Below, piece after piece: positions 4,401-55,338 of a stretch of DNA of 64,000 nt. The notes under the pieces were generated by a model. It was given only the letters and a program-made list of their open reading frames with translations, made no database searches and was not told the origin of the DNA. The position numbers and the translations under genes are program-made. Source of the DNA: Liolophura sinensis (taxonomy: Eukaryota > Mollusca > Polyplacophora > Chitonida > Chitonidae); assembly GCF_032854445.1 (NCBI RefSeq), contig NC_088300.1, positions 55,278,984-55,342,983 of the forward strand. Reading direction: 5' to 3'. Each line of letters opens with the position of its first letter. Position 1 is the first letter of the stretch.

Positions 4401-7400
4401 GATGAATAACACACCACCTCACAGCCTTCACTGAGCTCTACTGTTTTAATATTATGTTCATAATGTGTTGATAGGAGTACAGTTTTCTACCAGTTCCTTT
4501 TAGCTGTGTAGCAGCCGAACTCTAGATATGGCAAACATCACATGAAAGGTTAAGAAAATTTTTTGTGTGGTAATTTCAGATTGGCTCCATGACTGTGAAT
4601 CTGTCAGCAGATGGTATTCCAGAACTGTTGGTAGCTCAGCCAGGAGGAACATTTGTCACTCTCTTACCTCAGATACACACAGCCTTGGAAGAGCTGCTAG
4701 AGGAAGGGTGGGTATTGTCTCCATAGATGAGGACTATATAATGTAGGTTGTACTACCCAAAATGACTAAAAATTTCGCATGCAAATGTACATTTTTGGGG
4801 GGCAAATAAATGTCACAAAGGATTACTTTTGGTGCTGAATGGAAGCTGGTGCTGAAGCTACGACAGGAATGGTAGGTATTGTCTCCATAAAAGAAGACTA
4901 TATAATGTAAATATAGGTTATGGTATGTCCTGTTCAGTCAGCTGATGGTAAGCCAGAACTGATAGCAGCTCAGCACATTTGTCACGCTCTTAGGGTCTTG
5001 GGGGTGATGCTAGAGGAACAGTAGGTATTACAAGCAACGAGGACGACACGATGTAGTTTATGCTTGTCTCATTACATCAGACTTATCTGGTTTATGTACA
5101 ACTGTGATTGACCATAAAATGGTAATTTACAAGTCGACACTAGTCCTAAGCTTCATTGATTGTTCCATTTTATTAACTGTATGGGGTTTTATAACACATA
5201 CATATTATCTACATTTGGCACTTGGGGACAACCATTACCCAACTTGTCTAATTGCTTTGCATCGGTAACAAGGTACCCCCTGAATGTGTTTACGTCTCGC
5301 TAGCTGCATTGACATTGAGTAAAGCAGTGCTTTGGCCATGTATGCGACTTTTGACATGTACTTTGATCTTCCTTCACATTGCCTGCTAAAATATACTTGT
5401 ACCGAGAGCACATTGAAATGAAACCCATACTTTTAATTAACCCTGTTTGAAACAATGTGATGCTTTGAAGTATTGAACTGAAAAGTACAACTAACAATCT
5501 AACAAGCATATATAGTACAAGCATTTTGTTAACAATAACAACATCCTTGTGACATCCTTTTTGTAGAGCAGTGCTTTAGGAGGAGTTTGGGGAAGGATGG
5601 TGTGAAAACTTATTTTAGTGTCCCAATCTTATTTGGAAATGCCTGCCTGCTCCTGGTCAGCTCTGGATTCAGACTGATCAGAACACCATTTGCTCTGTGC
5701 TATAGCAGGCTGTTGCTCAAGGCTGCTGAGTGACATCACTTATGATCCACTGCTGCCTCACTGAATGTATATTAATGACCTGCACTGGCAGAGTGCAGTA
5801 AACCTAAGCAGAGTGCGGCCTCTGTCTATGAAGGGAGACCATCTAGTACTGGTCTAGTACTACATGCATATAGCACTGTGTCTTTTGTAAATGCGTAATT
5901 CACCATTATGGCATTAAAACCCACTGGCTTTGTTGTTTTCAGAGCCAGCAATCGATTAAATACATCTCTCGCTTAGAAGATGTCAAGAACCAAAGGTTTC
6001 CACTGGTCTCCTCTGACTTTTTTGCAACCCTTCTTATGGCCGTCATATAAGGGAAATATTTTTGTATCTTTGAAGATAAATCAGTGAACTAACTATTGAT
6101 CCATGAGTACCAAATGATATTTATAAGATTCTTTCATTTTGAGTTGATATATTGATTTATTGATTGGTTTTTTAATTATGTCATTTTAATACATGACAGA
6201 CGTGAGTTTCATGGGTGGAGGAACATACATAAAGTGCTAGGAGTTAACTATTGGCTTTATTAAGGATCACATAAACAATGCTATGAGCACTACCAAAGCC
6301 CAATTTATGGTGGTGGAAGGGAATCTCAAAAAATTCCCCGATGCTGGGATTGAACCATCACCTTGAGTGTATATCTCTCATACTGAATGCTCCATTGGCA
6401 ATGTTATCCTCCAATTACTTCTAACTCACATGCACATTTACCTAATATGTGGCTTTTGTACAGTGAGGATACAGCCAGCCAGTCCCTGGTGTACAGGTAT
6501 CACCCTTTGGCTTCCTCACGAGCAAGGAACAGCAGCGTGACCACAGAGATCGTCGGCTGCATCAGTCGGGGACCAGAGAGCCAATCAAACCGGGCAAGTT
6601 ACTATGCCCTGGTCACACTGGATGGTCAGTTCTCACTGCAGTCCATATTCTGTTGAGCTTTCATTCATTTCAAATTTTTTTTTTCTTGTTATAGCATGAA
6701 GTAAGCTTCAGAGATGAAGTTGTCAGGATTTATCGGAATTTAGGCTTTTTGGTAAATAGAAGTCCTGGGAAATTAGTTTACTTTAGTTCACAAAATTGTT
6801 CCTATTATTGAATCATGTCCTCATTTTTTGAATTGAACTCTCAGAGGGTTGTGAGCAGAACCACATGTATATGGACAAGTTTGTCATGTAGTTAGCAAGG
6901 CTACTTTAGGTTCACCCCCACCACTACAGCAGGCTGTATTTGTATAGCATATATTAGCACTACATTCATGTATTGGATAAATCATTACAGGACAGTCTGA
7001 AAAGGAATAATAATAATAATAAAAAGGACTAATATGAATGTGAGTAATCTGCTCTTTGTCTATAGGCACTATGATGTTGGTTCAAGATGGCTAGATAGTA
7101 TGTTCTTTGTCTACAGGAACTATGGTGTTGGTTGATAATGACAAGATAGCCTCTTCTTTGTCTGTAGGCACCATGATGTTGGTTGATGATGACAAGATAG
7201 CCTGTTCTTTGTCTGTAGGCACCATGATGCTCGTAGGATAATCTGTATCCTGTCTGTAGACACTATGATATTGGTTGAAGATGACAAGATAATCTGTTCT
7301 CTGTCTGTAGGCACTATGATGCTGGTAGAAGATGACAGGATACTGTGGAGTTTGCAAGTGGATCATCAACTTTTCTCACTGGCAAAACTTGATGTCACAG

Positions 7401-9286: not shown

Positions 9287-9589
9287 ATCCATGACATCCA
9301 ATGAAAATACTGAAACTCCAGAGATGAGCCAGTCTGTAGAACAGAACAGTTCTGCAGAAATAGGCCCAGGTTGAAGACGCACTGGTCCTTAATGACTTCA
9401 AGCATATGGAAGATAGATGTGCAGTATAAGGCATTGTGATATTGATGTACCTGATTTCTGCAAGGTATCCAGATACCTTAATGTAGCATGGAAATGGAAA
9501 TGGGTTTGGCGAAATTACGAATGATGGTTGTATCAACACAACCCTTAGGTTTGACATAAATTTCACTAATACAGGCTCTTTGATTCATG

Positions 9590-9840
9590 AAATAATGATG
9601 AATGTAGGGCATGCAGCCCAACTACTCTAAATGGCCTTAAATATTGCAAACAATAGCTCATTTTTTGATGCAAATAAATGTCACAAAATATTATTTTCGG
9701 TGCTGAAACTTACAATTTTCCAGTAAAATATCATCCCATGTTCCAAGCAAACCCCAAAATACCTTTCTAATATCAGTAGAACTCTCAGAATGAGGAAAAA
9801 TGTGTAGGTTAGTCATGGACGAAAATTATGGTCATTTTCT
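9590..9840 (+). repeat. Dispersed repeat C, copy 2
   Basis: About 250 bp containing the marker strings CAAATAAATGTCACAAAATA, GGTGCTGAAACTTA, AATATCAGTAGAACTCTCA and TTAGTCATGGACGA. The same ordered strings recur near 4775-4840 (partial), 14140-14275 and 23470-23700, always on the same strand. No coding capacity, terminal repeats or pol III boxes were seen, so the class is unknown. Confidence 0.6.
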
Positions 9841-10184
9841 ATTTGTTTTCTACCTTTATAAGACGATGTAAGAAACATTGTGGAATGACTTGTATTAAAC
9901 TCATCTCTAAACAGTGCTTATCATGAATGTAATAGCCAAAGATGAAAGGGTTAATATTATATACATGGATTGATGGTCGGGTAAGCTGTGTGTAACTCCT
10001 GCAGTGGTTACCCCCAAGCCTGCTCCTGCACCCCTCCTGCACATGTGTTTGAAATATTCCTTGGTATGGTTTAAAGTACAATATTGATTCCTGATTACAT
10101 GTATCTGTACCAGAAGTGAACTCATGTGTGCATTTAAAACTGTATTGGCTGACAAGAAACCATTTCCCTCACCCAGCTCGTGAG

Positions 10185-10320
10185 AAGGTTTGTCAGCAAC
10201 CTGCGGATGGTCGTGGGTTTCCTTCCATCATAATGCAGGCTGCCATTGTATAATTTAAGTGTTCTTTAGTATGACTTAAACTGCAATGTAATAATAAATA
10301 ATAATAATTTCAACTCACGC
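10185..10320 (+). mobile_element. SINE family A, 5'-truncated copy, plus orientation
   Basis: Contains the family core (CTGCGGATGGTCGTGGGTTT) and ends in an A/T-rich AATAATAAATAATAA tail. This is the same family as the copies at 15795-15937, 17723-17955 and 41100-41325. The tRNA-related head is missing. Confidence 0.6.
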
Positions 10321-10394
10321 TCGCACCATTTTGTTTTTCTGGAGGTTATGTTACCTTCAATATTATATTAGTCCTATCACAGCAGTGCTGCTTT

Positions 10395-10690
10395 GTATCA
10401 GGTCAGTTTCAATGTTGACAAGTTGGTAGAGTGTCCGCAGTAGATCCAGGGTCAGACATGGATTGGGCTACACCTAAGACCTTAAGAGAGGAAGTTGTAG
10501 CTTCCTCACTCACCATTTAACATTAAAGGAATAGTGGAACAACTGGTTGACCCGTATCAGTATAATGGCTCAAGTGGGGTGGCTTATTTGCCTTTGGTAA
10601 GTCGTCTCAATGAAGCAGCACTAGATAAAAGAGCGGTGGAAATCGGTCCTGCAACAAGGAGGCACATTACATGCACTCCAAAGAACTCCT
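10395..10690 (+). mobile_element. SINE family B (tRNA-derived), plus orientation
   Basis: A tRNA-like head (AAGTTGGTAGAGTGTCCGC, matching the A-box region, then a degenerate B box near ATGGATTGGG) is followed by a body shared with the copies at 27094-27390 and 59334-59601, including CACCTAAGACCTTA and a GGGTGGCTTA-type segment. The head is more diverged than in the 27 kb copy. Confidence 0.6.
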
Positions 10691-11164
10691 TTGACAACAT
10701 GTGACTGAAAAGTACAACCTTAAACCGTAAGCACTCCCACTCACTCAGTGTTGACATAATGTGCGTCTTCCATGAAATGCCTTGCCAAAGGTCCCAAATG
10801 TGATGCACAACTCAGTTACAGAACTGACAGCACACTGTTAACCATACCCCCGACATAACATTTTTGTAATCTTGACTCCGAGCTATTATTTGTACACCAG
10901 CTTTGTTGTTGTTCGGTGAACCCAATCTTTCTTACTTGATGCACTTTTATATGCTACTGGTGGATTTGGGGCATGAAAGAAATGACACCCCACAGGCTTT
11001 AATAACATTTCAGAAACCAGCCCCATTTGATACGCAGTATTAGTGTTACAGGTTTCCTAGCAGTAATGTTTAAATCCTCCACTGTGGTTGCAAAAAGCTG
11101 TTGAGCATGGTTTTACACAAATACTGTGCACATATAATGAATATACGAGGACAGAATTCTGGAA

Positions 11165-15500: not shown

Positions 15501-18500
15501 AGTTTGTGTAATAAATTAGTTACATCAGGTCAGTCCTTGAGATGGACAATAAAAAATAATGAGTCTTCCAAATTTACCAATGAAATCCAAAAGATGTTGG
15601 CAGTTCTTCACTGAAAAGTCAGGTTTCTGTTAACCATAAATATTCAAGATTCAGTACTGAAATATTTCTGTCTTAGCTTAGCTGGCAATTATGCCAAAGC
15701 TCATGAAGGCACATCTAATTCTGGGTTATCAGTTGCTGTGTGTTTACATTTAGATAAGTGTTATTTTCACCCTTTGCAGTGTTTCCCTGCAGGATTTGTT
15801 TATTTATTTATTTGATTGATGTTTTACGCCCTACTCAAGAATATTCCGCTTTTATGACGGCGGCCAGCATTATGGTGGGTGGAAAACGGGCAGAGCCTGG
15901 GGAAAGCCCACGACCATCTGCAGGTTGGTGCCAGACCGTTTCCCTGCAGGAGGCTGTACCAGCTTACCCGCCAACCTTTCTCCTCCAGCTCTCTGGCCGT
16001 TTCAAATATCTGCCCAACAGCTCGAGGTATCATGCCCATACTCTCCTCTGTAATATCATTCGGTCCTTCCATTGTATACGTTTTCCCAGAGCCAGTCTGA
16101 CCATATGCAAATATGCATACATTGTATCCATCTAAGGCACTCTGCAAAATCACAAGATAAAATGTCACTGTCATATACAGTTGGTAGTAGTTACATGAAT
16201 GACATTGTGCATGGTGTGATGTGGTTCCTTTACACAGAAACTTCATGTTAAAAATGTTACGTGTTACTGCCTTAGTTGACCCGCAGTACTGAGAGGTTAG
16301 AGCAAGGAAACAGGACTGGTTGGCCCAGTGTCAGTATAATGAGCTATTCGGCCCAAGGCCCGTAAAGTCATACTTGATTCCAGTGCTTTTTTGTTCAGCT
16401 GCAGCTTTAGGTCAGACAATGCATCAAAATCTTCCCAAACAACATGTACATAAGGCTGTATATACCAACAGTGCAACTGGCCAAAATGGTGCTTTAGATT
16501 AGCAGCATGCTCAGGTACACCTGCACCCAGGTTTCCCGGTAATACATGCATGAACAACATGTTGACCCCTTTAGACAACCGCACAGAACAAACCTGAACT
16601 AGTTGTGATATTTCTTCAAACACCATGGCCTGACTAGAGGCAGGCTGGAACACCCTGTCAAAGGAAAACTCGTACTTGTTTGTCCCTCGTCTCAGGCTGG
16701 CAGCCATGCTCTGAAACACAGACTACATGATATAGCAGGATATATAACTGCTATTCTCCCTACATGTAAACAGTAACAAACACATCAAAATGTGCCATTA
16801 CATAATCTTACCAGTTGGCTACATGCAGCTGTATATGCAGCAAAAAAAATAATAATAAAAAAACAACAACTCAGCTTTCTATCACTGTATGTTGGAGATA
16901 AATAAAAGCTTAACCTTCAAGTGCCCATTATACATGATACATAAAAAGAAAGCTTAACCTTCCATTCGAGAATGTACATTTACAAACATTAGACTAGGGA
17001 GCTAAAAAAAAAAAAAAAAGCTTAACCAGACACCAATACCAGCGCCACTGTCACTTCCCCTTGTCAGAATACTTCGTAATGGCAAGCTAAAAACAACAAC
17101 ACAAGTATAACAATATGTTGAATTTGTTACCTCATTTGGGTTGGTTTCTGCTAGTTTATCCAGCTCTAGCACCTTTCCATCTGTGTCGGGGAATGACATG
17201 TGCTGGATTATCCCTTCATTAGCCAACCTCTCTTCATTCAACAATGGACGCACACGACAAAACACACGAATGTTACCCTGTTTAAACACAAAATAAACAG
17301 TTGCAATTGGGATGAGATGTTGAAATAACATTTCAGGATAAACAAACCAAACTGTACGAAACCTTGTGCAGTGTCAGGAGTGCCGTCATAGTGCACATAA
17401 TCTGTTCTTTTTCAGTTTGTTAATTTCAAACAAATTACAGCAACTCGAAAGCCTTATAACTGTTCTGTTACTATCCATTTTCTTGAGATTCACAGAAAGT
17501 CGCCCTTGACTTAAAATGTATTCATCCAGGTATTGTTAATAAAAATATACGACAAACTCAAGTATTTATTAGATCAAAAATCTTTCTTCCTGGCCTTATT
17601 TACTTGTCTTGCAATAGTTAGGTTACTTAATTCTTTTTACACATTTCAACACAATATATTTATTTACTTTTCAGAGTAGGGACATATGACTCAATTTTGT
17701 GTAAAGAGAAAATACTTTATTTACATGTATTTATTTGTTTATTTTATTTGATTGGTATTTTACGCCGTACTCAAGAATATTTCACTTATACGACGGCGGC
17801 CAGCATTATGGTGGGTGGAAACCGGGCAGAGCCCAGAGGAACCCACGACCATCCGCAGGTTGCTGCAAGACCTTCCCACGTACGGCCGGAGAGGAAGCTA
17901 GCATAAGCTGGACTTGAACTCACAGCTACCGCATTGGTGGGAGACTCCTGGGTCACATCCGTTGTTCACCTTTAAATCTTGTACAGAACTGTGTAACCAT
18001 ATGAACACATTCATTGTTCACATTTAACTCTTGTACACAGTTATGTAACCATATGAACACACATTCATTGTTCACTTTTAACTCTTGTATAGAGTTATGT
18101 AACCATATGAACACATTCATTGTTCACTTTTAACTCTTGTATAGAGTTATGTAACCATATGAACACACATTCATTGTTCACCTTTAACTCTTGTATACAG
18201 TTATGTAACCATATGAACAAACATTCATTGTTCACCTTTAACTCTTGTACAGAGTTATGTAACCATATGAACACACATTCATTGTTCACCTTTAACTCTT
18301 GTATAGAGTTGTGTACCATATGAGCACACATCCATTGTTCACCGTTACCTCTTGTATAGCGTTATGTAACGATATGAACACAAATTCAATGTTCACCTTT
18401 AACTCTTGTATAGAGTTATGTAACTTTCTCCTAATGGTTTCATGTTCCCTCATCCTCTGATTAGCTTCGTCTAACTTCCCTTGCTGCTTTGCCACCATCT

Positions 18501-21500
18501 CCTTCAACTGATAAATTTCCTCGTCCTTCAGCTTCCCACTTTTCACTGATGAATCCAGACTGACCTGTCAACAAATATTAGATTTATTAGTGGCAGAGAT
18601 CTGATTGATGTTGACAGAATTTATTGATTAATTGGTGTTTTATACCAGACTCAGGAATTTTTCAATTTCCCGACAGCAGCCTACTTTACGGGTGGAAACT
18701 AGAGTGCATGGAGTAAATCACCGAACTACGCCTGGTATCTGGCAAACCTCCTGACTTAAAGCTTCAAACTTGCTCAAAGATGTGAAAAGTCCACTAAATA
18801 CATAGGCTGACTAAACACATTTCTTGACCTTTGCGATGTTATTCATGTCTGTTATGTTCACAAAGGTAATTTTGTACAGGGCAGAACAGAAAAACGATGG
18901 AGTCTATTTTAGAGACGTCAAGTTTAAGGTCCTTGATGTTACCTGAGTAGCTTCTAGCTCAGACCTGAGGCCAGCTTGAGCAGCGGTGTACTGTGACACA
19001 GCAGACTTCAGCCCAGCAATCTCCTCACGACTAGCCTTCAGCTCTCCCTCCAAGGCTTCCTTCTGTCGCTCAAGACTGGAAATCTTGAAGTTTAAATCCT
19101 CTATTTCTCTGTCATATTTCCGTCGGATGGACTCCTCAGTTTCTCGAGACTCTTGAGTGATTTCATCGATTTCTCTCTGATATTTTCTGCGTGCTGAATC
19201 CAGTTCACCTTCAACGTCTCTGTTTTGAAATAATTTAGAATATAATCAACACAGTAAAATCAACACAAGTCTAGAAGTAAGATTCTCACCTAATGCGTGT
19301 CAACAATTATTGTAATTTGATGGAATCCTCTAATTTATGCGTCAAGTATATTTTCTACTAAAACACAAAGGATCATTATCACAATGTCAACCCAGTCATA
19401 CATGTACATTAGAAGGTCATTCACTACATCTTATTTACCATTTCCGTAGAGTTCATATACACAGAACAGTGGCGAGCAGTGAGTGTTGGTTGGGTGGTGA
19501 GTGGTGAGTGGTGGGTGGTTTGTTTCCTTGTTTGATTAATTTTTAACAGTGCTTTCAACATCATTTCTGTTATATCACGACAGAATCTCCTTGTAGCAGG
19601 TTGAACTTGATGCTGACATTTTTACTGTGTTGCCACATGCACTGCCAAAGCAAGCTGAAGACACAAGACACAAAACTCTGCCCAGTCACATCATGTTGAC
19701 ACCAGGCCAACAAGTACTTGGTCCATTCCTCTTTTCCTGAGCATCGGGTGAGGCACATACAGTACCAAAATTACTTATGTTAAAGGTTTAGGTATGACTC
19801 ATTTGGATATTGAACCCTGGATCTATCATTAATGGGAGAGCCAAACACTATGCTACCGTGATGGTGGATGGTGGGAGATAAATGAAGGCCCATAGGGGTG
19901 TACCTCAGTTTCCGCTCTAGCGTTCTGGCTTCCTGAGAGATGGCTGTGGTGAGTTCCTCCTCCTTCGCTACCATTCCAGACAGCTGCGAGTTTTGCTGTT
20001 CCAGGAGGCGGATGCGCTTATCGTCCTCCTCCAGCCTCCCCTGGAGGCTCTGACTGTCTTGCTCTCGCTTGGCCATCATTTTCTCCATGTCCTCTAACCG
20101 CCCCTTCAAGTCCCATGCTGGCCGCTTGCTTTTCCCTGCTGGTGGCGCAAATATATAACATTAATCAAATGTTAGATCTTGCAAGTACCAAACCATGCTC
20201 AGGTTACACCCAAATCCTTTTATGTCAAAGATATTTAATATTTGGATCTTGAAAGCACATAATATTGAGCTTCTTTTGCTCCATATTCTCCATATTTTCA
20301 CTTTCATAGCGTATAAAGCTCTACCTGAACCGACATTGGTGAGAGGCCCTATAGTTACAGTGTAGCTCTAATACATCAGCCACTCGACAATCTTTTTAAA
20401 AAGAGACTGATATATATGTACATGCCTTTTGGATTTCTTAATTTTGCTACATTGTATTTTTAGGTTTAATTTACTAATGGAATTTTTCATTTGCTATAAA
20501 CAGTAATGCAGGAAATGATTACAATTGCAAGCTGATATGTATACAGCAATATGAGTCCAAGTCCAGCTCATGTAGGCTTATGTAGGAATATAAGTGAAAT
20601 ATTCTGAAGTATGGCCTAAAACACCAATCAAATGAATAATGAATAAATATATACAACATTAACTTGGAAAAAATTCAGCTATCAAATGAATAATAAATAT
20701 ACAACATTAACTTGGAAAAAATTCAGCTATCAAATGAATAATAAATATACAACATTAACTTGGAAAAAATTCACCAATCAAATGAATAATAAATAAATAT
20801 ACAACATTAACTTGGAAAAAATTTGGGGGACACATTTGTGAGTGTGTTGTATTGAACTAGATGTTGTAATGATAATGAGAGAGACGTGTATTTACTTGTA
20901 CTTTGATGTGCTTAAATGTAAAGCCAGGTATATCCAAGTGTTTTGTATGTTATAGCCTTGAACAATCCATTATTCTCCCTTAGGCTATGCATGTGTGTGC
21001 ATAATGAGCTCATTAAATACAACTGCTTTATCATAACCAAATCAAATGTAGCGGTATAAAGACGTATTGACAGGAGACAGTTGCAAGTTTGATGTTTAGG
21101 AAACAAGTGTGTGAAACAGAGCATGAAGTCTGCATTGTCTAACATTCTAATCAGGCTGTGAGCTATAATAACTGCACAGGTCAAAGGGTGAAGATGTTGA
21201 AAAGGCTGAACAATGGCTTTGTCATCAACCTTATCTACATGATAAAGTACACACTGATTATCCTATATATTGATCATTAAACATTCTAACATTATGGCTA
21301 GAGAAAAAAAACTTTCTTGGAAAATACTGGCTCTTGTCCAAATAACCTGTGATCCTTATGCCGGTAAGTGTATCTACTGGAGTAAGTTAGCAAGCCTTGC
21401 CTTCATCAGGTCTAAGAACAAATGAGCCAGTCTTAGGTAAGTCTGCTGCCAACACAACGTTAATCCCTTAATCAATAGCTGACAGATACAATTTATGAAT

Positions 21501-24500
21501 ATATACTTCAATGATATAATAGCTTCGGTCAGATTAATAAAACCGTATTATAAACAAGGTCATACACTGAAAGGACTAGGTCACTGCCTTAGTACTGAGT
21601 AATACATTTTGGGCAAGGACAAATGCAAGAGAAAACCACTAGCAAACTGTGAACATATGGACCAAATAGTGAAGTGGCATCACAAATGGCGCTTCATTAA
21701 CATTCTGGCTGGTGGTTGTGCTACTCAGCTGGCACTTTTCCGGTTTAGTAGCGAAGCTGAACAGTAGCTGTTTGAGCAATGAGTTCACTATTATGTATTG
21801 TTTCACATCCCATGCTTTTGGAATAAACATGTTACTGGAAGCTGACGATATTCATGTAATTGGCTATTTCTTTATCTGATTGTTCTGAATTTTTTACTTA
21901 TACTAACAATGACGACTGGTTTTTATGGGTGAAGAAGATCTTGGTGACCAGAGAAAACCACCGATCTTTGGCACGTTACTCACAAGCTTTCTCATGTCAC
22001 AATGTGTGTCAAATTGATGGAGAGCAAGAATTCTCCTGGAAACTTTATGTAAGGCCACACAAGAAGCATGATCTACCGCTTCTTAAACAGAATGCCCCAA
22101 GAGCAATAGAACGCCCAGTTTGAGAATGAGACTGAACCCATGTGTTGTGTGACATAGTGAGTAAAATAAAGTCTGAATAACTTATTGGTGGAATTGGAAT
22201 GGGAATGTAACAATAACTGTCAAGTGTAATCTTACCCAGTTTCAATAAAACAAGTTTACTGGCCCTGGAAACAGTGATGGATTAACTGTTATCTTACAAT
22301 ACCTATTACTGTTATATGCACTCAACTTCCATTGCAAAGTACTGTAGGTATTACATCACCATGGTAGTTACTTGTGCGCATAGACATAGTGCTACATGCG
22401 CTTTTTGAATTGGACCCCAGGTCTGAGAATGGTATACCTGCTATAGGTATGAAGATAGAATAATTGTAATTTGACTGTCCCTGAACTGAGAATGATAATG
22501 GGGTAAGTGTACTTTGACTGTCCCTGAATTGGGAATGATAATGGGGTAAGTGTAATTTGACTGTCCCTGAATTGGGAATGATAATGGGGTAAGTGTACTT
22601 TGACTGTCCCTGTTTTGTGAATAGAGATGGAGTAAGTGTAATTTGACTCCCTGCTTCAGGAATGGATACAGAGTAAGCGTAACCTGACAGACCAAGCTTT
22701 GAGAACAGAGATAAAATTATAAGTGTAAATGATTGTACCTGCTTTGAAATAGTGATGGAGTAAGTGTTATCTCACTGTACCTGCCCTAAAAATGGGGATA
22801 AAGTGTTATCTCATTGTACCTGCTCTGAAATGGTGATGGAGTAAGTGTTATTTCACTGTATCTTCTCTAAAAAATGTGATGGAGTAAGTGTTATCTCACT
22901 GTACCTTCTCTAAAAATGGTGATGGAGTAAGTGTTATCTCATTGTACCTGCTCTGAAAATGGTGATGGAGTAAGTGTTATCTATTGTACCAGCTCTAAAA
23001 AAAAAAAGGTGATGGAGTAAGTGCTATCTCATGGTACCTGGTCTGAAAATGGTCATGGAGTAAGTGTTATCTAATTTTCCCTGCTTTGGGAAAGTTGACG
23101 GAGTAAATGTGACCTTACAATAAGTGTTTTGAGAACAATGACAGAGTAAATGTGATCTCACATTACCTGCTTTGGGAATTGTTGTGTTGTTGGATGTAGA
23201 ACGACCAGTGACAGTAGCGTTCAGGGCTGTGCTCGAACGGCTTATTGGTTTGGTAGAACTCAGTGATGTGGTACTAGAGGATCGAGTCAATGCTGATCGT
23301 GTCTGAGCTGCACCTGGAAAAACAATTACCACATACAGAATACAACCTCATACACTGTATAATGCAGCATAGAATAACAACACTAAATCTTTGAGGCATA
23401 ATGCTGTCTCCAACACTTGTCTGGAAAGAAAAATTACCCACTTGGGAAAACAGATCATGTCAGGATGGGAACACAGAATATACTCTAAATGACCTGAAAA
23501 TTCGACCACAAAAGAGCATTTTTGCAGGCAATTAAATGTCACAAGATATTACTTCTGGAAATAAACTTTAAATTTAACCAGTAGGATAGCATCCTACCTT
23601 ACAAACACCTCTCAAAGCATTCTTTCTAAAATCAATAGAAGTCTCAGATTCTGGAAAAATTAGCAACTTAGTCATGGGCGACATTTTAGATCATTTAGGG
23701 TAGCTGGCCTTGACCTCAGGTTAAAATAGGTTACCAATCTCCAACAATAAGCTCTTGCAGCAAAGGTTAAGAGGTTACAAAAATGTTCCTTCAGCTGACC
23801 CCAAAACAGGTTGGACAGATGAGGTCATATCTGACATCTTGTTTGTTCCTAAGCCATTTGTCTTGGCATTTCTTTTCCTAGCCCTCCATGGAAGCCCCTC
23901 TAGCTTACAGAATAACTGAGATTAACCTTTAAATTTTTTTTTAAACACAAGTGACACAATCATAAATGTATAACAGCACGTCTATTGTAGTAGACTCCTG
24001 ATAATGGGCTTGCATACATGCATGTGTTTTATTGCCCATATATTTGCTTATACCTTTAGAACATTAACCTAAAAATGGAATCACAAATTCTTGTCCAACT
24101 ACTCCATAATCTTTCATGAAAATTTATGTGGCAATACAAATAACTGAGTAGTTCTTCTGTGAGATATGGTACAAGTTACATTTGAAACCTTTTTTTGAAA
24201 TGTTTGTTGATTCCTTTGGCATATCCAGCTATTTTTATCTTATATAGTTTCTGTGTAGTATCCTTCTCAGACTTCTGGAAAGAGATCCAAAAGTGGCTGA
24301 AAATGGTCATTCTATGCACTTATGAGATACACCCAGTGACCAATTTCTAAGCACCTCCAGTTACTAGAGTACATGAAATGCCTCGAATATTAACTATGAA
24401 GTTAACTACGAAGGCTTCAAACCCAAATCAAATGAATAAATAAATCTTATCAATGACAACAAATACTGAACTCACAAACTCAACTGATTTGACAGTAAGT

Positions 24501-40859: not shown

Positions 40860-42110
40860 AATGGGATGAGGAGCACTAATTATCATCGCAGCCACAGAAA
40901 TATATATATACAAATGCCCACAGTCACCTCTGTATATATATAACCACCAAAAGCATAATAGCCATGGCAGCCACGGAGATTTTTATACAAGCGTTACCTC
41001 TGAATATATGTATTCATCAAAATCCACTCTACATAAACAAAACAGTTGGGGTTGTAGTTCAGTGATGAAGTGATACCTATTTAATTTACACACTGGGGAT
41101 ATTTATTTATTTATTTGATTGGTGTTTTACGCCGTACTAAAGGATAGTTCACTTATACGACGGTGGTGCGAGGAAACTGGACAGAGCCCAGGGGAAACCC
41201 ACGAACATACCTTCCCACGTACGGCCGGAGAGGAAGAGGGCATGCCCACTGGAGATAGGGAAACTGACTATCAGGTTGCCATGATAGCCACAGTCATCGG
41301 AGGTGACATCTGTCGTTACCCCTATATATATATATAAGCATGTATCCACTAAAAACTGTACATGCAAAACAATAGGAGTTGTAGCCATACCTATTTATAT
41401 GACAAATATAGAGAAAATAGCAATGTGGTTACCATGACCGCTGTGGAAATCTACAAACGTGAGATGCCACAGATCATCACTTCCGTGTCTAAGTATCTAG
41501 CAAGAATTAAAACTGCTCTTGAATAACAGTTGGAGATGTAGCCAACAAAACCGACATAGTATAAATAGGAATGATGGCAACGTGGTTACCATGGCAACGG
41601 TGAAACTGGACATATCGTCACTTCTGTATCTAAGTATTCACCAAGAATTAAAACTGAATATGGAAAACAACTGGAGTTGTAACTCGGACACGAAGTTTAT
41701 TCTTAATTATATAGTAGATAACAGAGAATAGCAATCTGATTACCGTGACAACCGCGGAATTGAACAAGTGGGATTAGCGACAGATCATCACATCAGTATC
41801 TATGTAACCATGAAAAAATAAAACTCTACGTGGAAAACAGATGGAGTTGTAGCCGGACAGGCTCTCATCTCTAATTATACAGTATATATAGGGAAAATAG
41901 CGATCTGGTTACAATGACAACCGCGGAAATGGACAAGTGCGAGTTACTACACATCGTCAAATCAGTATCTATGTATCTACCAAAAATTAAAACTGCACAT
42001 AACAACTGGAGATATAGCGCGTACACGACTACGAACGGAGAGACGGACGGACAGACAGACAGACGGACAGACCGACAAAATCGATATAACATGATGCGCT
42101 CCGCTTAATG
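40860..42110 (+). repeat. Degenerate long-unit tandem array ending in a GACGGACAGACA-rich tract
   Basis: Units of very roughly 160-190 bp share GTGGTTACCATG, a GGAAAT..ACAAGTG..GA segment, ATCATCAC, a TATCTA..ACCA..AATTAAAACT segment and GGAGTTGTAGCC. Four or five copies run from about 40.9 to 42.1 kb, interrupted by a SINE A copy at 41100-41325. The last unit ends in a short (ACGG/ACAG)n tract and ATAACATGATGCGCTCCGC. Confidence 0.6.
41100..41325 (-). mobile_element. SINE family A, minus orientation
   Basis: (ATTT)n, TTGATTGGTGTTTTACGCCG and CTTCCCACGTACGGCCGGAG identify the family. An internal deletion removes part of the GGCCAGCATTATGG core. Inserted within the degenerate array. Confidence 0.7.
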
Positions 42111-42149
42111 GCGACGGGCGTATAAAAATGAACATGGTATTAAAGAACA

Positions 42150-42280
42150 GTGCGGATGGTCGCGGGTTTCCCTCGGGCTCTGCGCGGTTTCTTCCAACCG
42201 TAATGCTGCTCGCCATCGTACAAGATAAACATTCTTGAGTTCGGCGTAAAACACCAAATAAATAAATAAATCAAACAACG
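42150..42280 (+). mobile_element. SINE family A, plus orientation
   Basis: Contains GTGCGGATGGTCGCGGGTTT, a CATTCTTGAGTTCGGCGTAA segment and an AAATAAATAAATAAAT tail. The head is truncated. Confidence 0.7.
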
Positions 42281-43631: not shown

Positions 43632-43747
<116 letters not shown>

Positions 43748-43871
43748 TACAACGCTATGTAAGTTAGAAGCATTTGCCTGTGAACTAGAAAGAGGCCAAT
43801 CTCCTGATTTTTAAGTGACTCATCCTGACACATATTCCGGTGCTCCAGCGGCTTTTCTTCAATACACTAGG

Positions 43872-46800
43872 CTACGGGTTCACTATAACATGACAGGAAC
43901 CGGGCCCGCTGTTTGGACTGGCTGGTATATCCGCCCTGAAAAGCAAAGTACATCCTGAAAAAAACAACACGGCTTCAACACACAGTGTCGGCTCTAGTCC
44001 GACGTGCTTATCACAAAAGATTAACGAAACTAGGATCGCAGATCGATGGTCTGTCTTTTAAAAAATGACCTTGAACTTAGTATCAAGCGTAAAATATTTA
44101 AGAGCACGATGTCCTGACGAATGCAATCGGAAATGCCATTGTGTAGACATTCACACTGATTCCGATTACTGCTTATTGGCGGAAGCCTCTAAGAGTTCAA
44201 CAAAATACCACAGTTACACCTGGGACGCTTCTGACAAAGCAAGGTGAATAGTTGATTCATTAGAAAAAAAGTATCCTTCAGTGATGTGGGTTGAAACGGC
44301 AAAGGAAGTTGCTGGGTCCGTTTGTAAAGGCCATTGTAATCATGAGTTCAGCATGATATTTCACTTACAAATAATCCCGACTGTCACATTTTAATGCTTT
44401 CTGACTTCTTGTTAGAAAACAAAAACACCCTGAAAATGTAGAGGGTTATGAATACTGACGGTTTGTATAGAACAAAGCTAAGTAAAACCGATCCCACCTA
44501 TTCTCATGGCATATGTTCAGCTCAATATCGAAATGGTTTTGAAAATTTAGCACTGTAAAGTAATCAATGCTGCACGCAGAAATGAGACATTTTTAGTATG
44601 CGATTAAATCTTTCATAAATCATGTGTTATAATACTGAATGATCGGCTGACTTACATGTTCTGCAGAAAATGTGATTGTATACATTGTCTCTTAGTGGAC
44701 AATTTAATATCCATAACTTATTATTATATATTACAGTATTATATTCCTATGATAACCACATTTCTGGCCACCTGTGTTCAGGTTAGTCCATTTTTGATGA
44801 CAAAAATTGACATCTGTAAACTAAGAGATAATTACAGTCTTGACGAGGAACGTTTCAAGCCTAAAGCAATTTGGCCCAAAATCACGTGTCTGCTGTTCAT
44901 GTCTGTTTAACGGATGACAATTTGTTAGCAAATTAGTAAAGCAGGCCTACTTTCACGTATTACAAAAGAACAACAGTCAATCCAGCTTGAACCTGAGTGG
45001 CAATTCTGCGGGGAAAGGTCATGTAATTTGTTATATGTATTTTACTTATTGACGAGGAAAAGGCTTGTTCAGTGGGGAAATGTAATCTAAGGTGATAAAT
45101 GTTTTTGTACGTGTGTATGCTTGGGGTTTTACGTCCTACTTAACAATTTTTGTCGAGAATTGTTTTTTTTATGCATACAAAGGCTTCTTGCTTACAGTAA
45201 CATACGGCATCGGTGTTCTTCAAAACGAGGCTCCGCTTGCGTCACGTTGGTCACGTGTGAGGCACTCCACAGCCGTTCCGCCATCGCAGACGCCCGAGGC
45301 CTGCAAAATTTGTGTATGTATCTATGTAGCATGAAATCAAGACCGGAGGCTATACATTTGGATGTTGTGTCAGAAACAAAATACAATCATGTGGAAAAAT
45401 GAGGGGAGTTGATATGTCGTATTGCCGGAAAAGGATTGAAGTCCAGGAATATGACGCCTGGTAAGTACAGTGCTAGTTATTTAAACGTCAGAAAACGTCA
45501 CGTTTTAGTGTTGCCATAATCTTCACATTTACAATATTTTATTAAAAATAATACTAACCATAATGTTTGCAGGAGGTTGGTATCGTCAATGTATTCGCCC
45601 CACAGACACGCTTCGCCGCCAATAACTAAACGTTTCGCCTCTGGTGTCCCTGATAAATGTACACACATCCATAGTTAAGCTTTACACACATCTACTTAAA
45701 CAACATCATTTCAGCTTTCGATGACAACCTTTCAACTATTACACGAAGACAGTGGAGGGATACAATGTTACTGTTTCCCGGATGTATCTGCTGAGGACGC
45801 ATTCCAATCCAACGGATCAGCATATATGTAGTACTATATAATGTTAATAGCTGATGGATGAAGATGCTAGCTCATTTATTTAAAGCCATGTTTTATTGGT
45901 TGATTAATTTATTGGAGTTTTACGCCGTACTCAAGAAAATTTCACTTATACGACGGTGTAAGCCAGCCATCGCTGAATCAGTGGCGGCTTCTGGTCAGGA
46001 GGTTTGTTAAGAGCTACCCGGAAAAGTTTTCTTCGGGCTCCATGTACAATATCTCAGTTGTATAAGTTAAAGATTTTTGAGTACGGTATTAGTAAATAAA
46101 AAATTCAATCGAATCTTAATTTGACACCAACTTGTAATGCTTCCAATTATCTTCGTACCACTTTATAAGATATAACCGTTTACCCAGCCTGGTGCTTTCT
46201 CAAGATGGCGATATACGTCTACCAATGTCCAACTGCTCCGGGTTATTTGGGGCACGAGGAAAGGCTTAACTGCTCTTGGATTTTTGAGGATGAGGAAAGG
46301 CCTACAAATGCCTGACTGCTATGGTTTCTTTTTTTTTTGAGGAAAAAGAAAGGCCTACAAATGTCGAACTGTTCTGGGGCTTTTTGAGGATGGGGACAGG
46401 TTTAATGTCTACCTGCTCTGGCTTGTTTTTTTGAGGACAAGGAAAGGCGTACAAATGTCTCACAGCTCCAGAACTTTTGGAGGATGAGAAAAGGTCTATA
46501 AATGTCTCTATAAATGTGCTCTGGGGGCCCTTTGACGAGAAAGCCTACAAATATTTAACTCTTCGGGGACTTTTGAGGATGAGAAAAGGCGTGCAAATGT
46601 CTACTTGCTCCGGGGCCTTGTGCGAATGAGGAAAAGCCTGCAGAGTGACAAATGTCTACCTGCAAGATCTGGTGCCTGTGAGGGCGGGGATTAGAGTGAT
46701 AAATATTTACCCGCAAGACCTGATACCTGTGAGGACGGAGATAAGAGTACAAATGTCTATCTACAAGATCTGGTGCCTGTTAGGACGGGATAAGAGTACA

Positions 46801-49800
46801 AATGTCTATCTGCAAGATCTGGTGCCCGTGAGGACGGGATAAGAGTATAAATGTCTACCTGCCAGATCTGATGCCTTTGAGGACGGGGATAAGAGTACAA
46901 ATGTCTAGCTGCCAGATCTGATGCCCGTGAGAACGGGATAAGAGTACAAATGTCTACCTGCAAGATCTGATGCCTGTTAGGACGGGATAAGAGTACAAAT
47001 GTCTACCTGCAAGATCGGGCGCCCGTGAGGACGGGATAAGAGTACAAATGTCTACCTGCCAGATCTCATACCTTTGTGGACGGGGTTAAGAGAACAAATG
47101 TCTACCTGCAAGATCGGGTGCCTGTGTGGACGGGATAAGAGTACAAATGTCTACCTGCAAGATCTGATGCCTTTGAGGACGGGGATAAGAGTACAAATGT
47201 CTACCTGCAAGATCTGGTGTCTGTGAAGACGGGGATAAAAGTACAAATGTCTACTTTCTATGTTGGTTTCTGAGGATCGAATGGACGTACAGATGTTAAC
47301 CCGTTCTGTATAGATTTTGAAGAAACTGTTTTTCTGGTGGGTGTGTCCGAAATCAACTTTCTACTTCAAGTAGAAGTAAATTCAACAGCTGACAAAATGT
47401 CACATAAATTCAAACAAAGTAAGGCAAGCGGAATCGATTGTTATTTGGCACAGCGTGTACTCTTTTAGTGCTCTGAGCAGGACAGTTTTACCGAAGGCAG
47501 ATTTACCCATTGGAAAGACCCGCCAGCTTCTCTTGAGGAATCAGAATTCAGACCAAGACGTTTTTCACTCCGGACAGCTGCGGGAAGAGGCAGATACAAG
47601 AAGACTGGATGTTCAATAAAGGAATTATAATACATTCCGAAGACTTCTAAATCAGGGCAGCTGCCGACGGAGGTAGATTTAAAAATATATCCACATGGGA
47701 AACACCGATGTAGATACCTCTGGATTTTCAATAAAGCTTAACTCTGAGAGGCTTATCTATCTGTACGTACATACAAACTCTGTCGGGTCGACGTTGTAGT
47801 ACTTGTCCCAGTCTTTGCCGTAGTTGACGTAATTGAGGTACCAGGCGGTGGAGTAGACCGTCCTCAATCCCATCTCTGTGGCTTTCTGAAGAATGGTTAC
47901 ATCTAAGGCTCCCCAGTTCTTCCATATTTGGATGATACTTTCACGGGGTACCTTCAGTCGTAAAAGAGAATAATTCTACCATGTAGAGGCTATAGTAAAT
48001 CAAACAAATAGTACAAGTCTGACCATTTTGAAGATGATGCTGTATTGTGAATTTTTGGTGGCATCTTCAGCCATTATGCGAGTGTATATAAACTTATACA
48101 TAATATATTTATCTATTTGCTTGTTTGTTCCTTTTTTTAATTGGATGAGTGTTTTACGCCTATCTCAAGGTATTTCAGTTATACACAAGGGTCAAGTTAG
48201 CGGACAGATAGCCGGTGCCCCCTCCAACAAACCCACTGTACAGGAGCACAGCCGTGGCGCAGAGATTAGTGCTCTGAATGATGCAATCCAGCTGGTTAAG
48301 TCCAATACAGGCCTTCAGATTGCGCACAAGTTAAATTCTTGTCGTGGGAGGTTCCCCGCTTCGCACGTTCTCTTTTGAATTCTACATTTTGAAGTGTTTG
48401 TGGGTGTCTGTTGATGACACAATGCTATTGTCCGCTGTTGATGCGTTCCAGGAAAGCATTAACCCAACAAGACATGTTCTTGGAAGAGTACCGATTTCTT
48501 TAGTTCTTGACAGGCATAACATCCATTCTTAATCATGTCAGGTGAAATAAACATTCGAACACTGAATCCGACAAGCTACTTTAAGCTAAACAATGTACAT
48601 GGATTTGACGAAAGCGTCAAACAGGTTGATATAATGACATTAGCCAACTGATAGAAGTACGTGTAATCTGCATTAAGGATTACAACTGGATTATATACAG
48701 TAATGATACCGTAATGCCGTTGTCCAAAATATCCTGCCAAAACATGTACTCTTTGTTCTTCTTCAGCTGATTAAGATTTAGTAATAATCTAGAAAAATAA
48801 AAAAAATAAGAGATTTATACAATTATTATACGGACAGGCAGATCTCACCTAAAAGAAAACTTTGATTGTAAAGACACTGGAGTGAAAAGAAAATAGAGAG
48901 GACTAGACATATCAATGGTTTTAATTTGGAGAATATAACATTCTCAGATGCACAGGTATAATGGTGTGCTATAATCGTCTGAGGCTGACGATATGCGTGT
49001 TATGCACTTCCTCTGTCACGTGCCATACAGATGTCCCCACGTGATGCAGCGACGAACGATGGTATCCTTGATCCCATGTCGCTATAATAGGATTATCCTC
49101 TATTAAAATGACAGTAACACTTAGCAGTAATCTGATTTATGCCATAAGATGTTAGTGCAAATAATCCTCCGGTCAACTGAAACCGTAGTGTACATAAACT
49201 CGCACAATGTTCTGATCTCTGTCGTCAGTCTTGTATATTATGTTCTTGCATAAACTGAGATTCTGCTGCTAGCCTGAAGCCTGATTCATTCATTCATTCA
49301 TTGCTTTCAAATGATTGTTTATTAAATGTGATATCATCACGCTATGTGATAACAACATGTCTAATAAATAGCAATTACCATCACTGCATATTTTTTAAAC
49401 AAAGTCTGCTTAAGCTATGGCGTCAGGCTGCCTTAAATACTACTATGGAGGCATTTACAAAAACAGAGTAAACTCCTATACTGAGTCAAACCGAAAAACA
49501 CTGTCGTAGCTACTCTCGTTTTACTCTCCATGCTATAGTCTTTTACCTTATTACCTGTTTACGTAATATTCCTCCAGTTGATTGAAATTCGTGCCAAAGC
49601 CCATTTCTTTCATGAACTCTCGAATCTTTAAATTTCCCTCCCTACAACATAGTAATTTAATTGAATGACTTTCATAAAAATAAATGTATTTCTTAGTGAT
49701 GTCTTAAGCATACCAAGCCCATTCTACAGGGAATATGTTTAAGTCACACAAAAGTGTTCGCAGAGTACAAAATCCGGTCTCTTATAAATTAGAAATACCA

Positions 49801-52800: not shown

Positions 52801-55338
52801 TCGCAAGGCCAGTTCTCAAATCGACGTATAACACAAACTACCAAAGAACTAAGAAAGTATATAAAGTACAAAAATAGGGCGGAATCATGCAAAGAGAAGT
52901 AGTCATCACTTTTCAATGATGTTGGAAAGCGCAATGAATGTTCTAGGCAAATGAGATTACGAATAGAAGGCCTTTATATCACGTAAAACCCCATGTATTT
53001 GTACAAATGTTACAGCTTAACTTTGTATGACCACAGGTATAGAGTACGGGTATTTGAAAATGCGTCTAAATGCCTCATAGAGTTCCTCCGATATAGAGTG
53101 CATCTTACTTTTGTATGACGACAGGTATAGAGCATTGAGAGGCCTGGAGTCCACGTGGAGCATCCCACACTTGTGCAGCTCTGCTGACATCAACATCAGC
53201 TATGGAGTACTTCAGAGAAGGTTTATATGTCGTATAGAGCTCCTCGGACGTAGTTATCTCAGCACAGCTTACCTTTGTATGATCACTGGTATACATTATT
53301 GAGAGTAGATCTAAAGACCACATAGACCTCAGACTTACATCTTACTTTTATATGATCACATGTACTTGGGGAAGATCTAAAGGCCTACACAGACTTCAGA
53401 CGTAGAGCCGTCTGTACATCTTACCTTTGTATGATCACAGGTATAAAGCATTTGGGAGAAGGTCTGGAGTCCACGTAGAGCTCCCCACACTTGTGCAGCC
53501 TTAAGGACAGCTCTGCTGGCGGCAACGTCTAACTGATCTAAACAGGCGCAAAAATATCTATTTTTACATTTTACATAGCATCAAAAACCTAAAGAAATTT
53601 ATTTATGAGCAACATGGCGTTGCAAATGTTTTGTTTGTTTTTTTTTGGGGGGGGGGGGGGGGGATAAATAACCCAAATCAATGGCAATTTGTTTTCGATT
53701 AAAAGAACCATCTGTATGCCTATTAAAACCTATTTCTAATACTACATTAGTTATTTAGTTATTGATTTTTACCTGTTTCATTGGTGTTTTACCCATACTC
53801 AAGAATATATTAATAAAGACTTGTCTTGTGGGAATACGTACACGATTCATCCGACTCCAAAGATGGGTAATGGTCACACGGGGCGTCGATAGTAACCTCC
53901 AACATCTCAACACCTCTCCGTTGTTCTCTGGGGTGTGACACAACTGACTTTGCAGAAGTGTTTTTGGGGTTATCTTCACTTTGTCTCGTAATATAACGGC
54001 CGTATCTTTCAAAGGCTGCTTTTATGATATCACAGCTATGGGATTTTTTACTCAAAGTAAATCTGAAGTTTTCAGGGTTGATCGTGATAATGTGACCCGG
54101 GTTGGTTGACATTTTCTGGGGTAAAGGCCAAGGGTATCCTCTCGATGGTGGAGCCGCTTTGTGGAATGGAAACTCGTCGACTGGGAAAGACCAAACAAAA
54201 TTCGTGATTAAATACCTATATTTTCTCTAGAAAAACGAAAAACGCTCTACTAATACCGCATGTAGGCTATCCAAATCAACTTTATACCTGCTTATAATTC
54301 CATATCAGCACTACACATTTTTAGTGCTAATGCAGACTTTTAACCATTTTTAAAGGGTGCATTATTTAGCTTGTTCGTTTTCTAAACTGATTGATTTAAC
54401 GTTTAAATCACTTGTCTGCTGCTGATCAATATTTTGAAATCCAGTGCACAAATGGTGTGGTCTCAAATGATGTGGTCTCAAAGTTCAAGGCTAAGTTGAC
54501 TGTAACTACTTTGACGTGCGTCACCATGGCAATTGCCATCAATGTACGAACGTATTAAAGAAGTGGGCCTACATACCCAGTGTTAACTTGCTCTAACGTC
54601 TGTATAACAACGGCCTGTTCGCCCTGCTAGTAGAATTACTAAGCACAGTGTTTAGTCAAGAATTCTCACAAAGGGTTCATATTTGATCCTTGATAAGCCT
54701 TCACACCGATAGTAAAAATTAAAAAAAAAAAATAACCTTGCAGCCTAAGGAAATTTGGTTTATGTTGAAATAGGACTTACCAAGTTAGTCATTGCCTTAA
54801 TCACTTTGCTGTGACCATGACAAACCTACCCATATAAGAATTGCTCCTAAGCTCTGAAAACTTGGCAGCCCAGAATTGGTCTCCCGGTGACTTCTCTTGC
54901 GAAGGAAATATGTCCACGCCAACACGAAACTGTTTGGAGAGCTGCTTCATATCCTTCGTTAAGTTTGTTTTGACTTCCTTGTAAAAGAGCAACATTTTGG
55001 GAACTCGTTGGTCACCATTCGACTTATTTATATGTCTTAAATCTTGATCACTGTGCCGTTTGCGACGGGCAGGCATTCTTGTATATCTGTCAAGAAGTGA
55101 AAACCTGTTTTTACGACGAGTTTTGTTTCTTTGTGTGTAATAAGTGTTCATGACTGCGTTTGGCCCGAGCTGCCGTTCACGGACATCTGTATTTTCTAAG
55201 GCTTCATAAGGTAACAGTTTGTTCACCTCGCTCTCATCCAGGCCGCTCAGGCTTAGCCCGGTTCCGGCCGTTGTTGTCGTGAATGTGGGCGGTTGTCTGT
55301 CATCAAATGCGCCGAGTATTTCCTGTTCATCTTTGCAT
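43872..55338 (-). CDS. GH20 beta-N-acetylhexosaminidase (13 exons, 5' end missing)
   Basis: Removes terminal GlcNAc/GalNAc from glycans. Exons on minus: 55338-54830, 54180-53842, 53537-53425, 52378-52268, 51727-51626, 51495-51390, 51110-50921, 49641-49555, 48788-48710, 47951-47771, 45649-45559, 45300-45196, 43935-43872 (TAG). All phases agree, giving about 691 residues from the first exon listed (human HEXA 529). Landmarks: [60 protein letters not shown], catalytic Asp-Glu in [30 protein letters not shown], and a last exon supplying the C-terminal Cys (SGPGSC). The first exon adds about 170 residues before the usual fold, with a furin-type RRKR, several basic runs and N-glycosylation sequons. 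It enters in phase 2, so at least one upstream exon with the signal peptide or membrane anchor is unseen. A lysosomal, secreted or fused-lobes-like enzyme cannot be told apart. Confidence 0.92.
45118..45190 (-). mobile_element. Family B-like repeat fragment beside hexosaminidase exon 12
   Basis: GCTTGGGGTTTTACGTCCTA and CTTAACAATTTTTGTC match the start of the elements at 34.9, 36.7 and 59.3 kb. It starts within a few bases of the donor of exon 45300-45196. Confidence 0.45.
45893..46115. mobile_element. Two family A fragments, head to head
   Basis: One in minus orientation (about 45893-45975, GAGTTTTACGCCGTACTCAA), the other in plus orientation (about 46020-46115, GAGTACGGTATTAGTAAATA). Together they form an imperfect inverted repeat in the hexosaminidase intron between exons 47951-47771 and 45649-45559. 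Confidence 0.5.
46210..47260. repeat. 49-bp minisatellite in hexosaminidase intron
   Basis: About 12 well-preserved copies (46640-47260) of a 49-50 bp unit with GAGTACAAATGTCTACCTGC, AAGATCTG and GAGGACGGGATAA segments, preceded by older, more diverged units back to about 46210. On the gene's sense strand nearly every unit carries TTGCAGGTAGAC, a junction-like CAG|GTAGAC. No neighbouring exon has the same sequence. Confidence 0.8.
48130..48205 (-). mobile_element. SINE family A fragment
   Basis: AGTGTTTTACGCCTATCTCA followed by a TATTTCAGTTATAC segment, diverged from the family core. It lies in the hexosaminidase intron between exons 48788-48710 and 47951-47771. Confidence 0.45.
52672..52935. 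repeat. Foldback element (inverted repeat, ~85-bp arms)
   Basis: The left arm (about 52676-52760) and right arm (about 52841-52931) are near-perfect reverse complements, sharing CATTGAAAAGTG, a CTTTGCATGATTCCG segment and CCTATTTTTGTAC. The loop is about 80 bp. It lies in the hexosaminidase intron after exon 53537-53425 and codes for nothing. A MITE-like origin is likely. Confidence 0.8.
52985..53424 (-). repeat. Degenerate copies of hexosaminidase exon 53537-53425 and its donor
   Basis: The exon end (CTGTGATCATACAAAG) with its GTAAGATG donor recurs in the following intron, with donor-like sites near 53344, 53271, 53107 and 53020 (about 73-87 bp apart, one gap of two units). The copy near 53107-53200 is the longest and still encodes [15 protein letters not shown], a decayed version of the exon's [16 protein letters not shown]. 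Deletions and frameshifts mark these as pseudo-exons. Confidence 0.8.
53645..53665. repeat. Poly-G run
   Basis: An unbroken run of about 17 G after a T-rich stretch, in the hexosaminidase intron before exon 53537-53425. Its length may be unreliable in assembly. Confidence 0.8.
53770..53826 (-). mobile_element. SINE family A fragment beside hexosaminidase exon
   Basis: TTTCATTGGTGTTTTACCCA and TACTCAAGAATATATTA match the family A tail side. It ends about 15 bp from the donor of exon 54180-53842, a second case of this family lying directly inside a splice junction. Confidence 0.5.

Follow-up and report, generated by a model that had tools for sequence, protein, structure and literature searches.

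Genes and exon placement in the window

The 64-kb stretch of chiton DNA that was analysed (hereafter the window) holds three multi-exon genes whose exons were placed by reading frame, phase and homology: ITFG2, a KIFC1-type kinesin-14 gene and a gene encoding a GH20 beta-hexosaminidase (HEX). The Pfam families agree with the identities of all three genes; for the kinesin the sequence evidence is that of a kinesin-14, and KIFC1 is the name of the human protein, which we presume to apply. The genes, the exons whose ends are copied and the arrays formed by the copies are collected in Table 1, together with the strongest cases that were found elsewhere in the genome. Some placements in KIFC1 qualify the junction set: exon 1 is without an open frame and perhaps represents UTR; the start used for exon 3 falls outside the open frame and was kept among the 72 window junctions; and both ends of exon 12 were misplaced, by 1 and 15 bases, in the scan of these junctions and in the matched test described below, the corrected ends being negative as well (scores 9 and 9). 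The window also contains a multi-exon membrane-protein gene at 37252-38760 on the plus strand, which by eye resembles the beta subunit of a calcium-activated potassium channel; its first exon gave no Pfam match at E 0.001.

Table 1. Genes, copied exon ends and tandem arrays in the window (positions in the window; the bar marks the exon/intron boundary), followed by the strong cases outside the window
Feature	Position	Strand	Description
ITFG2		+	12 exons; homology to human ITFG2 in the KICSTOR complex
ITFG2 exon 7	4580..4707	+	donor end GAAGG|GTGGGT, source of the copies; placed by frame and by phase with exon 8; score 24
ITFG2 exon 7 end and donor, two copies	4856-4889 and 4934-5029 (span 4856..5029)	+	from local alignment; spacing about 150-160
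51-bp array at ITFG2 exon 9 acceptor, intronic part	7049..7310	+	TRF 7049-7342
ITFG2 exon 9	7311..7399	+	acceptor CTGTAG|gcactatgatg, source of the copies; placed by phase; score 29
KIFC1-type kinesin-14		-	15 exons; homology to KAR3 and Ncd kinesins
KIFC1 exon 4	23167..23313	-	donor AAAGCAG|GTAATG; placed by frame and phase; score 21
43-bp arrays seeded by KIFC1 exon 4 donor	22732-23110 and 22461-22682 (span 22461..23110)	-	
KIFC1 exon 7	18397..18564	-	conserved coding end; donor TTAAAG|GTGAAC; score 36
54-bp array, KIFC1 exon 7 end and donor	17954..18396	-	TRF 17954-18424
GH20 beta-hexosaminidase (HEX)		-	12 exons; homology to human HEXB and HEXA
HEX exon 3	53425..53537	-	donor CATACAAAG|GTAAGATG; alignment with human HEXB; score 26
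HEX exon 3 end and donor, degenerate copies	53336-53393, 53259-53330, 53098-53179, 53011-53086 (span 53011..53393)	-	
L014			kinesin acceptor, exon starting EAMSINKSLSALGDV; 11 upstream copies, period 64
L027			kinesin donor after STLMFGQ; 19 copies within 1.4 kb, period 73
L056			myosin donor after EDQCVII; at least 26 copies, period 66 then 50
L064			myosin donor after EGIEWQH; 17 copies, period 32
L074			dynein donor; 16 copies, period about 31
L077			dynein acceptor; 2 copies
L078			dynein donor; 5 copies, period 44

Tandem copies of splice junctions in the window

For every one of the 72 window junctions, a segment of 20 exon and 20 intron bases was compared by alignment with the junction's own intron, over at most 700 bp. 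Tandem copies in the adjoining intron were recovered at exactly five junctions, with scores of 21-36, while the next best junction scored 13; a score of 16 or more was reached by 0.13% of 3,000 unrelated comparisons. These five are the very junctions, in the same three genes and at the same exon coordinates, that had been singled out in an earlier, sequence-only reading of the window, and its unit lengths were likewise recovered (43, 51, 54, about 80 and about 150-160 bp). Most of ITFG2 exon 7 has been copied: the second copy in Table 1 corresponds to exon bases 21-128 plus the donor, with 79 of the 96 aligned bases identical. The acceptor junction of ITFG2 exon 9 has five upstream copies, all with AG (5/5). 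The donor of KIFC1 exon 4 has 13 matches in 1.4 kb of intron, the final two of which lie outside the 43-bp arrays, with GT in 6/13; that of KIFC1 exon 7 has eight copies, in which GT is always kept (8/8); and that of HEX exon 3 has four degenerate copies, each comprising up to 75 exon bases and the donor, with GT kept in 3/4.

The direction of copying can be read from the proteins. The copied ends include the conserved LHNSIQELK of KIFC1 exon 7, the start of ITFG2 exon 9 and, less strictly conserved, the end of HEX exon 3. Since these exon ends are conserved in distant relatives, it is the exon that was copied into the intron and not the reverse, and in these three cases the exon is indeed the founder of the array, as had been proposed. 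The protein alignment with human ITFG2 runs across the junction of ITFG2 exon 9, and the alignment of KIFC1 exon 7 with KAR3 chains is unbroken across its junction. Homologous proteins align across the junctions without insertion, so that normal splicing probably uses the exon-proximal site at these three of the five window junctions. The sequence-only reading had also stressed that the arrays extend only into the intron. They do lie in the adjoining intron, but this is uninformative, since any tandem duplication of an exon/intron segment will look this way when the exon-proximal site is used.

Minisatellites in the surrounding introns

The introns of this genome are rich in minisatellites. 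TRF identified 74 arrays that make up 11.9% of the 305 kb of genic DNA sampled (median period 49; some arrays counted twice where loci overlap), and near kinesin and myosin exons a copy is present on a given side of about 13% of the intron points. Where minisatellites are this common, arrays must touch some junctions, and the window junctions were therefore held against two measures of chance. As a yardstick for the window we took the rate at which intron points lie in the terminal unit of an array, i.e. have a copy on one side only. Among the non-coding points of the window a copy was present on the right only at 188/12,889 and on the left only at 152/12,889, which predicts about 0.95 such cases among the 72 junctions. 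For the 62 window junctions that have usable controls, the expectation from points in the same introns is 0.54 at score 16 and 0.33 at score 20. The five arrays observed are well above chance and constitute a real excess. The earlier view that minisatellites would rarely fall on exon ends this often thus stands, in a form less extreme than it implied because the introns are so rich in them.

Several arrays that are clear of junctions deserve mention. Introns beside conserved exons (loci L010, L014, L048, L068 and others) often consist mostly of minisatellites. An intron of HEX carries a 49-bp array (46642-47254, minus strand) of 12 copies with a degenerate tail to about 46200; many of its units combine an acceptor-like CTCACAG with a donor-like TTGCAG|GTAGAC, which gives them the look of a miniature exon. 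This array lies in mid-intron and by eye does not match the neighbouring exon ends; it was not counted as a junction array. The introns of KIFC1 contain 59-bp units at 27412-27751 and 48-bp units at 20638-20823, in both cases clear of the placed exons. The idea that ordinary intron arrays are old junction arrays was unsupported by a strand test of splice-like motifs. For donor-like motifs on the sense versus the antisense strand of the gene the test gave p=0.03 over all 74 arrays, p=0.052 over 66 after removal of duplicate rows and p=0.16 over 53 when the junction arrays were removed as well; for acceptor-like motifs in the set of 53 it gave p=0.14, and here the sense strand had the weaker motifs.

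Junctions compared with points in the same introns

The comparison was extended to the genome assembly (609,464,459 bases in 632 contigs). Exons outside the window were located with the Pfam profiles for kinesin (PF00225), myosin (PF00063) and dynein AAA_6 (PF12774), and were taken with their flanks as loci L009-L090. The kinesin loci are the best 30 of 132 matches, two of which lie within the window and were excluded from the outside sample, and the myosin loci are the best 30 of 81; for PF12774, 83 of the 90 matches lie in the regions examined and 67 of 68 introns were modelled. A further kinesin set was drawn from 26 additional matches, with three previously tested ones skipped. For exons outside the window, boundaries were derived from the reading frame together with a splice-site matrix (31 window donors, 31 window acceptors); for the dynein exons the phase between adjacent exons was used in addition. 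The 355 junctions tested comprise 72 from the window and 283 from outside (kinesin 56, myosin 60, dynein 134, further kinesin 33). A match was defined as a junction-spanning copy scoring at least 16, and the controls were random points in the same introns, at least three per junction.

A spanning copy was found at 16/355 junctions. Usable controls exist for 303 of the junctions, all 16 among them, and predict 4.25. Outside the window the numbers are 11/283 versus 3.70 expected for 241 (p=0.0008), and 9/280 versus 3.52 expected for 238 (p=0.006) when the doubtful rows are omitted (L009, L062 and L076 only; L088 and L090 were retained). At scores of 20 and 25 there are 8 matches versus 2.28 and 8 versus 1.83 expected outside the window, and without the doubtful rows 6 versus 2.18 (p=0.015) and 6 versus 1.78 (p=0.005). 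The intervals of the latter ratios, without doubtful rows, are 1.0-4.4, 0.8-5.1 and 1.0-6.0 at scores 16, 20 and 25, respectively. The interval includes 1 for kinesin and myosin alone (0.8-4.7 at score 16) and for dynein and further kinesin alone (0.9-6.3).

Both exon ends are affected, the 16 matches comprising 12 donors and 4 acceptors (among the latter the doubtful L062), and it is the donors that carry the excess. At donors there are 12/178 matches versus 1.50 expected for 152, and at acceptors no significant excess was detected at score 16 (4/177 versus 2.75 expected for 151, p=0.29). The same division is seen outside the window: 8/142 versus 1.27 for donors (121 with controls) and 3/141 versus 2.43 for acceptors (120 with controls). 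At donors, then, the excess over the intron background is secure, and at acceptors it is not proved. The proposal that junction-spanning duplication recurs is borne out in this genome, above the intron background, by this comparison of boundaries with control points, within the sample of 355 junctions and mainly at donors.

The position of the copies points the same way. In the first 322 junctions, counted without the span rule at a score of at least 16, one-sided copies occur at 16/320 at the junction itself, at 6/298 at a distance of 100 bp and at 3/254 at 200 bp; the one-sided rate is highest at the junction and drops within about 150 bp. An ungapped method applied to the 355 junctions located eight array starts within the last 5-40 bases of the exon, versus roughly 2 expected (about three times the intron density), and four of these eight are window junctions.

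Seven strong new cases were obtained outside the window (the last seven entries of Table 1); at L027 the first copy is identical to its source over 40 bases. Other candidates were of lesser quality. The copies at the acceptor of L076 are without exon bases and fail the span rule, as does a second exon of L078, at profile position 141, with a score of 18. The donor of L009 is doubtful, its boundary lying past the domain match and its copies being without GT, and so is the acceptor of L062, which has a single copy 640 bp away. The donors of L088 (score 16, a single poor copy) and L090 (score 18, a single copy with few exon bases) are weak.

Splice signals and sequence of the copies

In the 13 arrays that were inspected we counted at least 129 copies; these counts are lower bounds, based on matches with a score of at least 13 within 1.4 kb and capped at 26 for any one array. 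The best copy holds at least 8 exon bases and 7-25 intron bases in 12 of the 13 arrays, and only 4 exon bases in L090. GT or AG is kept in 102/129 copies, and 54/129 either exceed the score of the real site or come within one bit of it, so that the arrays do form the ladders of decoy sites that had been suspected. Among the arrays examined, no unit is shared across genes: units vary from one gene to the next, and each corresponds to its own exon.

It had further been suggested that such ladders may lengthen introns or create isoforms, against the background of junction duplication as a proposed route to new introns. Copies at a distance from the real site that is a multiple of three number 43/129, which is one third, the chance level, and the median period is a multiple of three in 3/13 arrays (L056 additionally begins with a period of 66). 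The splice dinucleotides are identical to their source in 246/278 instances versus 2819/3235 for the other positions (18 cases, including weak and doubtful rows); they are kept no better than the neighbouring bases, and the decoys thus appear to be neither purged nor preserved. All copies sit within existing introns at existing junctions and no new intron was seen. The ideas of isoform creation and intron gain find no support in the tests on the sampled junctions, and the data fit neutral tandem duplication rather than a supply of isoforms.

Origin of the arrays

We consider it probable that the arrays are minisatellites of the type called mirages in amphioxus, in which a junction segment is duplicated in tandem and the copies are mostly neutral passengers, with seeding above the rate of the same introns. 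As the sequences show, a segment of about 30-160 bp across the exon/intron junction was duplicated head to tail. Slippage or unequal exchange is the presumed means by which later copies then multiplied and diverged within the intron. The exon-proximal copy would provide the coding end and the site in normal use, as the protein continuity in the three window cases suggests, and the remaining copies would be spliced out with the intron although many of them match the real site in strength. Exon definition, which prefers the short exon, likely picks the innermost site, and most copies would then be neutral passengers. The frequency with which recognisable arrays are seeded, as measured in our sample, is about 2.5-5 times higher for junction segments than for segments of the same introns, mainly at donors. 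This excess may reflect either a mutational bias at junctions or a better survival and detection of arrays there.

One alternative is that the introns are rich in minisatellites, some of which straddle junctions without any junction-specific process. The density of TRF arrays and the frequency of intron points with a neighbouring copy speak for it, and the matched background does account for roughly one case in four (4.25 of 16); moreover, without the doubtful rows the outside excess amounts to about 2.6-fold, and its interval extends to 1. We nevertheless regard background alone as unlikely, given the excess over matched controls in the full sample, outside the window and above all at donors, and the peak of the one-sided rate at the junction itself. 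A better candidate, possible though still doubtful in our view, is that seeding is equal everywhere and that junction arrays are retained or remain visible for longer, both because the exon copy is under selection and because splicing stays intact after a duplication that includes a complete splice site. This agrees with the logic of one-sided decay and with the location of the exon-proximal copies in conserved coding sequence in three window cases: selection holds the exon copy while the intron copies drift, so that the time over which an array can be recognised would be longer at a junction than inside an intron, by a factor of up to about two. By the same reasoning the gain in detection is at most about two-fold, and the excess persists among very similar copies, with 6 matches versus 1.28 expected at a score of at least 30 (5 versus 1.28 without doubtful rows) and 5 versus 0.87 at a score of at least 34 (4 versus 0.87 without doubtful rows; small counts). 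Among such copies a detection bias from the constrained exon copy should, on this reasoning, matter little.

The arrays might also be functional ladders, whose alternative donors or acceptors tune isoforms or the efficiency of splicing. The number of copies with intact or even equally strong sites would suit such a role, and a precedent exists in the human gene IFI6 (6-16), where tandem donor copies at an exon end likewise form a splice-donor minisatellite; there, however, the units are of 12 bp, the copied donors are used, and the case concerns a single gene. In the chiton the chance-level reading frame of copies and periods, and the splice dinucleotides that are retained no better than their neighbours, make this role very improbable. 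The amphioxus mirages are moreover reported to leave regular splicing undisturbed (PMC3087553, PMC3902484). Least credible of all is an origin as assembly artefact or as a splice-site-carrying mobile element (introner). Tandem repeats are in general prone to misassembly. The Liolophura japonica assembly, however, is described as based on PacBio HiFi reads with a mean length of 8,347 bp at 14x (PMC11068029), which exceeds the lengths of the arrays in the stretches examined. The units vary in sequence and length between genes and each matches its own exon, which is unlike an inserted element.

Beyond the reading as mirage-type minisatellites, we tentatively raise a broader possibility, for which the odds seem to us somewhat against. 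Splice junctions, and 5' splice sites above all, may be preferred seeds of duplication, such that a few percent of the junctions, by extrapolation thousands, would carry intact decoy ladders that the spliceosome skips by using the exon-proximal site; the phenomenon may have arisen independently in lancelets and may be general in some animal genomes.

Relation to known systems

Arrays that span a junction have the structure of the amphioxus mirages, and their kind is thus already known. Mirages are described as tandem duplications that span an exon-intron boundary in amphioxus Adh3, the globin genes BflGb6 and BflGb9 and TnC (troponin C), with similar repeats in PGBD5 (PMC3087553, PMC3902484); the globin paper considers them possibly general in cephalochordates and proposes them as a route to intron gain. 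As described there, they share with the chiton arrays their minisatellite-like nature, their occurrence at either exon end, the many copies with AG/GT and their presence in several genes of one lineage, and their units are of 10-72 and 150-160 bp. They differ in that they belong to a cephalochordate and not to a mollusc, and that the chiton arrays come from a count of 355 junctions set against controls in the introns and show an excess at donors; on the other hand, splicing and somatic instability were examined in amphioxus, whereas the chiton arrays are known from sequence alone. Among the literature matches listed there is no mirage by that name outside the lancelets, and a report in other words is possible. 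What is new here is a second phylum for mirages, a rate and an intron control.

Two other systems are related. In the potato RdRp gene an intron is reported to have been made by tandem duplication across a boundary, according to the Rogers model (PMC4974935). There, as in the chiton, a boundary-crossing tandem duplication brings the splice signals along; the chiton copies differ in lying inside existing introns. In human segmental duplications, variable minisatellites occur, some of them at exon-intron boundaries, where the tandem repeats are described as altering some paralogs by lengthening exons or introns of recent copies (PMC2812944), whereas in the chiton the exon-proximal site appears unchanged.

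Each array amounts to a natural competition between splice sites, with up to at least 26 donor copies (L056) or 11 acceptor copies (L014) beside the real site, and about two thirds of all copies are out of frame. With RNA, such arrays could reveal how strictly exon proximity governs the choice of site. They also make measurable, in a second phylum, the proposed path by which duplicated junctions would lengthen introns and perhaps give rise to new ones.

Other repeats in the window

Apart from the tandem arrays, dispersed repeats were noticed by eye. Those at about 27130-27370, 10430-10700 and 59380-59600 look tRNA-derived (GGCCCCGATAGCACAGTTGGTAGAGC...) and are probably SINEs, and an intron at L064 contains a repeat similar to them; ARAGORN and Rfam reported nothing in the window. 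Another dispersed repeat occurs on either strand at about 17750-17960, 15800-15950, 41110-41240 and 42140-42270 and ends in ...GAGTACGGCGTAAAACACCAATCAAATAAA; similar repeats are known from molluscs.
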